A stretch of DNA of 64,000 nt from Limonium bicolor. Taxonomy: Eukaryota; Streptophyta; Magnoliopsida; Caryophyllales; Plumbaginaceae. Both the position numbers and the translations under genes were made by a program. The notes beneath the pieces are model-generated. The model saw only the letters and a program-made list of their open reading frames with translations. It was not told where the DNA came from and did not search any database. Below are positions 60,739-61,478 of the stretch, piece by piece (the first letter of the stretch is position 1; every line of letters starts with the position of its first letter). The stretch lies in the NCBI GenBank assembly GCA_023374045.1, contig CM041779.1, forward strand, positions 145,763,485 to 145,827,484. The letters are read 5' to 3'.

Positions 60739-61478
60739 GAACCTTCAATATCTGCTATCCAATCCCACCCGCACCAAACCCTGAAGAAACCGCCATCAAC
60801 ATCAACGACTTTCCATTGGAGCAATGTCAGGTTATCCAGCCAGGTATGATACTCTTAAATGGATACCTGACACCGGAAGCACAAATCCACATCATCAGAC
60901 GATGCGACGAACTTGGAGCAAAACCAGGAGGGTTCTACACACCCGAATACCCGAACGGAGCAAGGATGCAATTGAAGATGATGTGCATGGGTAAGGACTG
61001 GAACCCTTACACCAAGTCATATCAAGAAGTACGAGCTGAAGATGGAGCAACAGTAGCAAGCATACCAGAGGAGTTCCACGCGGTCGTTAACCACGCCGTG
61101 GGAATTGCTCAGCAAGTTGAGACGGAATCAATTCCAAGTGTAAGGGCAGATTTATGCATTGTAAACTTCTACCAGAAAGGTGGACGTTTGGGTATGCACC
61201 AAGACAAGGACGAGTCACCCGAGTCTCTAAGTAAGGGAGTACCCGTGGTGTCTTGGTCCATTGGTGATACCGCTGTGTTTGTATATGGCGAGCAGAAGCG
61301 TGCTGATCTCGCAAAGAAGCTACTTCTGAAATCGGGGGATGTATTAATCATGGGTGGGCAATCAAGGATGCTATACCATGGCATCAGGAAGATCAAACTG
61401 AATACCGCACCGTCGGCAGTGATCAATGCCACACACATGAAACCCGGGCGTTTGAATTTGACCTTCAGGCAGTTTTAA
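60739..61478 (+). CDS. AlkB-like Fe(II)/2-oxoglutarate dioxygenase, terminal exon of Gag-AlkB (element 3), intact
   Basis: Acceptor AAACTTAG|GAACC, stop at 61476-61478. Spliced after exons 1-3 it gives exactly 672 codons (671 residues plus stop) with no interruption. In fusion numbering the domain spans about 452-671: GGFYTPEY, LKMMCMGKDWNP, IVNFYQ, His579/Asp581 (GMHQDKDES), His639 (MLYHGI) and Arg663/Arg669 (RLNLTFR). These are the iron and 2-oxoglutarate ligands of AlkB demethylases. Where copy 1b has ATG this copy has TTG (60816), so translation as part of Gag is more likely than a separate start. Overall closest by eye to plant ALKBH1-like proteins. It could strip methyl groups from element RNA or cDNA; substrate unknown. 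Confidence 0.94.

Follow-up and report, generated by a model that had tools for sequence, protein, structure and literature searches.

An ALKBH1-type AlkB domain as a predicted alternative terminal exon between gag and pol of a Limonium bicolor chromovirus

Results

An AlkB exon between gag and protease

The window analysed here, 64,000 nucleotides of Limonium bicolor (GenBank assembly GCA_023374045.1, contig CM041779.1, positions 145,763,485 to 145,827,484 of the forward strand), carries a Ty3/gypsy long terminal repeat (LTR) retrotransposon, below called the given element, in which an exon between gag and protease encodes a domain that is, by its sequence, an AlkB-family 2-oxoglutarate (2OG)-Fe(II) dioxygenase, a predicted enzyme. 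With moderate confidence, we favour the reading that this is a chromovirus which has captured part of an ALKBH1 gene, retained under selection as an alternative terminal exon, and that the resulting Gag-AlkB protein would act on the element's own nucleic acid. A sequence-only reading of the window had described such an exon, and its coordinates, 60739..61478, were reproduced exactly from the splice acceptor and the stop codon. The open frame (60732-61478, plus strand) is 248 amino acids long and its residues 38-246 match PF13532 over the whole profile, positions 1-194 of 194 (8.7e-48, 163.5 bits, cut-off 31.2). In the joined 671-amino-acid protein described below, the HxD motif (579/581), the distal His (639) and RLNLTFR (663) stand where that reading had put them. 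Among 24 copies with AlkB alignable as a single piece over 85% or more, all five residues of the HxD...H iron site and the R....R 2OG site were kept (H153, D155, H213, R237 and R243, 24/24), and so were N142 and Y144, the roles of which in the 2OG pocket are taken from the available text of PMC9289625.

Throughout the genome 150 AlkB domain copies were scored, all above the Pfam cut-off, among 38,326 loose candidates; they are found on each of the eight large chromosomes and on two small contigs. Gag exons were found directly upstream of AlkB in 23 of the 24 copies examined, and in the exception (L018) the protease acceptor was still present downstream of AlkB. With gag exons upstream and the protease downstream at the same site across copies, the proposed location between the Gag knuckle and the protease was borne out, and two objections to it, that the domain belongs to an unrelated neighbour and that it never recurs at this position, both failed. 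A host gene adjoining or nested in the element was ruled out by the same counts. Of 60 points of 400 bases drawn at random from the large chromosomes, 11 matched element DNA over at least 100 bases (18%, 95% interval 10-30%), and four of these 11 reached at least 85% identity; shorter matches, of which there were two, were left out of the count, and the relatives counted may not all carry AlkB.

Predicted splicing of gag and AlkB

In a minus-strand copy of the window the gag frame was seen by eye to shift at GT...AG boundaries, and once four exons were joined, Gag ran on into AlkB in a single frame with one nonsense codon. The same four exons of the given element give a 671-amino-acid Gag-AlkB frame without a stop. 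Paired with the exon 3 donor, a further acceptor at 61655 gives an in-frame entry into protease and omits AlkB; the protease of the given copy then hits a stop. Both joins, exon 3-AlkB and exon 3-protease, restore the frame. Because one donor can be joined in frame to either, AlkB is, as predicted from the sequence, an alternative terminal exon between gag and pol.

The layout was followed in 20 loci of 10 kb out of the 150 scored copies and in three window copies, together 17 copies of subfamily A and six of subfamily B, which is 66-68% identical to A in AlkB and ~55% in gag. In subfamily A, reference copies included, GT/AG was kept in 16/17 copies for intron 1, 16/17 for intron 2 and 17/17 for intron 3. 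The AG of the protease acceptor was kept in 17/17 A and 6/6 B copies, and all splice sites were kept in five of the six B copies, the sixth having no alignable gag; the third-subfamily window copy (one copy) has the same exons and phases. In A, unspliced read-through meets a stop in introns 1, 2 and 3 in 17/17, 16/16 assessable and 17/17 copies, respectively, the intron 1 value of L026, in which gag is cut short, being doubtful. Per base, exons had ~13 times fewer indels than introns (75 events over 15x2016 nt of exon and 161 over 15x328 nt of intron, calculated by hand with the reference copy and the truncated L026 excluded). The AlkB exon was marked intact by the script in 12/17 A and 5/6 B copies (L025 and L018 unscored), a count that is wrong for the minus-strand window copy, the AlkB frame of which is open. 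Beyond the AlkB stop, 18 of 19 subfamily-A copies contain AATAAA, which we take to be a poly(A) signal.

Degenerate frame changes in place of introns were ruled out, since the joins restore the frame and the sites are conserved between subfamilies that are ~55% identical in gag. By a conventional reading, the nucleocapsid and Pol of subfamily A would be reachable only after splicing. A gag with three predicted introns is itself unusual: according to the available text of a review, plant LTR elements are generally without introns, Ogre and EVADE being the exceptions (PMC12786077).

Selection on AlkB and gag

The ratio of nonsynonymous to synonymous substitution rates (dN/dS) of AlkB was 0.17 within A (153 pairs) and 0.16 within B (15 pairs); between A and B it was 0.10 (103 of 108 pairs usable), with dS saturated as it is near 2. 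The set held 24 copies with AlkB aligned in one piece, two of which contain stops; two frame-changed window copies were excluded, and the choice of loci by domain score introduces a bias. Two window copies not chosen by domain score gave 0.16 in AlkB and 0.06 in gag exon 1. For gag exon 1, on which the sampling placed no selection, the ratio was 0.10 (28 pairs). Ratios for reverse transcriptase came from a small number of copies and were set aside. As judged from these aligned copies, the ratios show the AlkB domain to be under purifying selection.

Probable origin from plant ALKBH1

The element AlkB is closer to plant ALKBH1 than to other AlkB homologues in both sequence and fold; ALKBH5 was not among the 50 matches listed in this comparison, which excludes nothing. 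The sequence-only reading had supposed the capture of a host ALKBH1-like gene, and the capture of a plant ALKBH1-type gene is supported. In the tree the element copies make up a single clade with support of 100/100 and 100/99, set off by a long branch of its own, and holding this clade together with the plant's own ALKBH1 gave a p-AU (approximately unbiased test) of 0.066. The plant's own ALKBH1 is present at two places on C3 that are 99.4% identical, and of the plants compared, Corchorus has the most similar ALKBH1 (71%). The two loci (L030 and L031; G000 C3:133829146 and C3:703311) lie far apart on the chromosome and represent either a recent duplication or an assembly duplicate.

Two introns interrupt the domain in the plant's own gene, after ...PEQ and after ...LHQ. 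In comparison with plant ALKBH1 (rice OsALKBH1, 5xeg/5xoi; proteins named ALKBH1C/1D), the element copy has neither these introns nor the host N-terminus, whereas an FDIC-type motif just upstream is common to the element and the plant's own ALKBH1 proteins. Because the host introns are absent from the element exon, capture from a spliced mRNA is probably the simplest reading, with later intron loss as the alternative. Two other high-scoring candidates, P0121 and P0198, were rejected as host-type genes with a repeated domain. A check for annotated Gag-AlkB fusions elsewhere in plants, with 7,994 candidates scored, showed no gag domain in the precomputed Pfam domains of the 120 listed of 319 matches. 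A scan of IMG/VR gave three distant loci, which were not used further.

Assignment of the carrier to the chromoviruses

From the chromodomain that follows the integrase, the carrier is taken for a chromovirus, in agreement with the sequence-only reading. PF00385 (cut-off 25.1) was exceeded in one of three tested pieces (L016, 26.5 bits), and the other two, from the given element (25.0 bits) and L011 (24.1 bits), were just below it. The match was weaker in the first window copy (19.1 bits), and PF00385 gave no match in the third-subfamily window copy. The segment running from the end of integrase to the chromodomain was present, wholly or partially, in 18 of 21 loci. Assignment to the Tekay/Del lineage would be a guess from element and LTR size, which fit.

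Anatomy of the given element and its neighbours

The given element is ~14.1 kb long overall (Table 1). Its 3' LTR lies beyond the window (L029:1429-5271) and is 96.9% identical to the 5' LTR (65 mismatches in 3,884 columns). At literature rates for plants of 6.5e-9 to 1.3e-8 substitutions per site per year, this divergence corresponds to roughly a million years. The primer-binding site, TGGTATCAGAGC, is presumably of the initiator-Met tRNA type.

Table 1. Coordinates of the given element and of the further AlkB exons, in window positions unless a locus is named
Feature	Position	Strand	Remarks
5' LTR, 3868 bp	55060..58927	+	TG...CA; starts TGAAATACCCC, ends GGTGTTACA
Primer-binding site	58933..58944	+	TGGTATCAGAGC
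gag exon 1 (ATG, capsid)	59135..59809	+	PF03732 5e-18, PF19259 5e-12
Predicted gag intron 1	59810..59913	+	GT-AG, 104 nt, in-frame stop within
gag exon 2 (basic linker)	59914..60172	+	no Pfam match
Predicted gag intron 2	60173..60253	+	GT-AG, 81 nt
gag exon 3 (CCHC zinc knuckle, nucleocapsid)	60254..60595	+	PF13917 0.0027, under its cut-off
Predicted intron 3, before AlkB exon	60596..60738	+	GT-AG, 143 nt
AlkB exon	60739..61478	+	complete predicted ALKBH1-type 2OG-Fe(II) dioxygenase, own stop codon at end; bounds are splice acceptor and stop
AlkB exon tail up to protease acceptor	61479..61654	+	contains AATAAA
Protease exon, broken in given copy	61655..62409	+	PF08284 1.3e-10; alternative acceptor from exon 3 donor, AlkB skipped
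Reverse transcriptase and RNase H	62288..63697	+	PF00078 1.2e-36, PF17917 5.9e-34; frame differs from protease frame in given copy
Integrase start	63710..64000	+	named by likeness to minus-strand copy (PF17921)
Integrase end and chromodomain	L029:255-1105		outside window
Second AlkB exon	29266..30005	-	subfamily A; gag exons 31615-30941, 30839-30578, 30494-30153; one nonsense codon in gag exon 2
Third AlkB exon	4278..5016	-	subfamily A; frame change near 4577-4580
Fourth AlkB exon	17002..17737	-	third, diverged subfamily; frame change near 17490

Positions 1-36639 of the window hold two subfamily-A elements arranged as an LTR-internal-LTR-internal-LTR tandem with a shared middle LTR. A nested element of the third subfamily (9222-23315) divides this LTR into two parts, 25700-23316 and 9221-7764, and in its own LTRs it contains 71-bp tandem repeats (10819-11019 and 21281-21552), two copies in one and three in the other. 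In the 5' leaders of the tandem elements there are antisense frames (31883-32554 and 6651-7277, plus strand), one of them RNase H-like (RVT_3, 1.6e-5), and the usual primer-binding site is missing after the LTR ends (32769 and 7764). For these two reasons a piece resembling a long interspersed nuclear element may have replaced the primer-binding site. Elsewhere, four AlkB copies with equal scores and ~10.1 kb spacing (G000 C1:497439466-497470353) look like a tandem array of LTR-internal units, and the record of L036 (G000 C31) passes from a matK match into a long stretch of N.

Discussion

Weighing the evidence

Several observations weigh against the reading of AlkB as a captured exon kept for use in a spliced Gag fusion. 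The splicing of the gag introns is a prediction from conserved sites and frames, and the 20 fetched loci were those with the best domain scores, which favours an intact AlkB. The whole uninterrupted Gag-AlkB frame was found in 4/17 A and 0/6 B copies. Gag exon 1 of B could be assessed only partly, because the reference copy of B carries damage in its own gag. Read-through in B met a stop in 3/5 copies for intron 1, 1/5 assessable for intron 2 and 6/6 for intron 3, and AATAAA past the AlkB stop, which B does not keep, was present in 1/6 B copies and 0/1 third-subfamily copies. Indels in multiples of three (A: 33/120 in exons against 33/178 in introns; B: 17/83 against 5/46) are not much enriched in exons, as in decayed copies. 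No matching 5-nt target duplication was seen at the given element. Finally, the sequence-only reading had called the domain intact in this element; this holds for the AlkB exon and the Gag-AlkB frame but not for pol, in which a stop and frame changes interrupt protease and reverse transcriptase.

A mechanism for the preferred reading

On the preferred reading, the C-terminal portion of a plant ALKBH1 gene was taken up by a plant chromovirus, probably via a spliced mRNA, and selection has retained AlkB within the gag-pro interval as an alternative terminal exon. One LTR-driven transcript would then have its gag introns spliced, followed by a choice of acceptor: the AlkB acceptor would yield Gag-AlkB, ending at the stop after AlkB, and the protease acceptor would yield Gag-Pol with AlkB skipped. 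The unspliced RNA would be the genome that gets copied. Gag-AlkB would bring the demethylase into the particle, and there it would most probably strip N6-methyl or other methyl groups from the element's own RNA or single-stranded complementary DNA (cDNA), countering host marking or damage. Splicing, entry into particles, the substrate and the benefit are what we infer in this scheme.

Because the domain is of the ALKBH1 type, N6-methyladenine (6mA) on single-stranded or unpaired DNA would be at least as likely a substrate as N6-methyladenosine (m6A) on RNA. According to the available text of PMC10469495, 6mA in single-stranded or unpaired DNA is a substrate of rice ALKBH1, which makes nascent cDNA an attractive candidate. 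The available texts of two other papers concern RNA: in vitro, the orchid enzyme discussed below is active on m6A RNA (PMC9289625), and Arabidopsis ALKBH9B frees ONSEN RNA from stress granules (PMC12786077). A more specific version is put forward only tentatively: that the element carries an adenine eraser in its own particles as an alternatively spliced Gag fusion, clearing 6mA from single-stranded cDNA (or m6A from packaged RNA) before integration, and that AlkB domains were captured at least twice independently against host adenine methylation.

Other functions were considered. Gag-AlkB, or AlkB freed from it, might act in trans on host nucleic acids (6mA of R-loops, m6A of mRNAs) and so loosen silencing. 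The chromodomain, by its usual role, suggests that the element engages chromatin, and rice ALKBH1 is described, in the text available, as removing 6mA from R-loops and countering PRC2 repression (PMC10469495); the predicted fusion to capsid and nucleocapsid favours a location in the particle, however, and we regard trans action as unlikely. Somewhat less probable still is that the domain repairs alkylation damage, 1-methyladenosine (m1A) or 3-methylcytidine (m3C), in element RNA or cDNA, as has been proposed for the AlkBs of plant flexiviruses. That AlkB is a functionless passenger spread by a few master copies would fit the absence of the whole Gag-AlkB frame from 19 of the 23 examined copies and the ability of master lineages to spread passengers, but is very improbable given that the exon is kept across three subfamilies, with the low (dS-saturated) A-B ratio given above, that every active-site residue is kept in all copies compared and that related domains are present in other contigs.

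Comparison with known systems

An AlkB domain in an LTR retrotransposon is not unprecedented. The available text of PMC9289625 (2022) describes a transposon-borne AlkB in Phalaenopsis, the Ogre-like Gypsy_Pa_2799 with a paALKBH5-like open reading frame (ORF), ORF2. That element makes up 8.6% of the P. aphrodite assembly, and in the screen of 121 angiosperm genomes described there, no further species is reported to have the domain. Both are abundant plant Ty3/gypsy elements with a captured AlkB-family domain that keeps its cofactor residues. Gypsy_Pa_2799, as described there, is a Tat/Ogre element of 25.5 kb with dual RNase H and 6.4-kb LTRs, whereas the given element has a chromodomain, a length of 14.1 kb and 3.9-kb LTRs. 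Its ALKBH5-type domain is in the separate ORF2 and its Gag-Pol is one uninterrupted ORF; in the given element an ALKBH1-type exon lies between gag and protease and gag is split by predicted introns. AlkB activity has been shown for the orchid element and is predicted for the given element. The given element was rejected as an orchid Ogre-type element, since it has none of the ORF2, the ALKBH5-type domain and the single Gag-Pol ORF described there. As Ty3 lineage, AlkB subfamily and layout all differ from the Phalaenopsis case, the AlkB described here reads as an independent capture. In a full-text literature search for AlkB in LTR retrotransposons, based on titles and abstract starts, covering few subscription journals and with preprints outside its scope, only the orchid paper and its review were relevant among the matches listed.

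A Gag-type product made via splicing, as predicted here, is known from the gag-pro intron of Ogre and the spliced short Gag of EVADE and BARE1, according to the available texts (PMC12786077, PMC3735527). The given element differs from these in its three short predicted introns in and after gag and in that the alternative product would gain an enzyme domain. The Alphaflexiviridae, Betaflexiviridae and Closteroviridae are likewise plant genetic parasites with an AlkB of their own, as far as the text of PMC9289625 describes them; these carriers are RNA viruses and are set beside the given element by description only.

Significance

Two Ty3 lineages with AlkB domains of different subfamilies read as two captures, which makes nucleic-acid methyl marks a likely pressure point between plants and retrotransposons. 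Given its predicted link to Gag, the enzyme's place and substrate of action are directly testable. If the tentative eraser scheme is true, a single splice choice would set the ratio of eraser-bearing Gag to Pol, and adenine methylation would be a host defence against plant retrotransposons that has been countered by at least two captures of different AlkB types.
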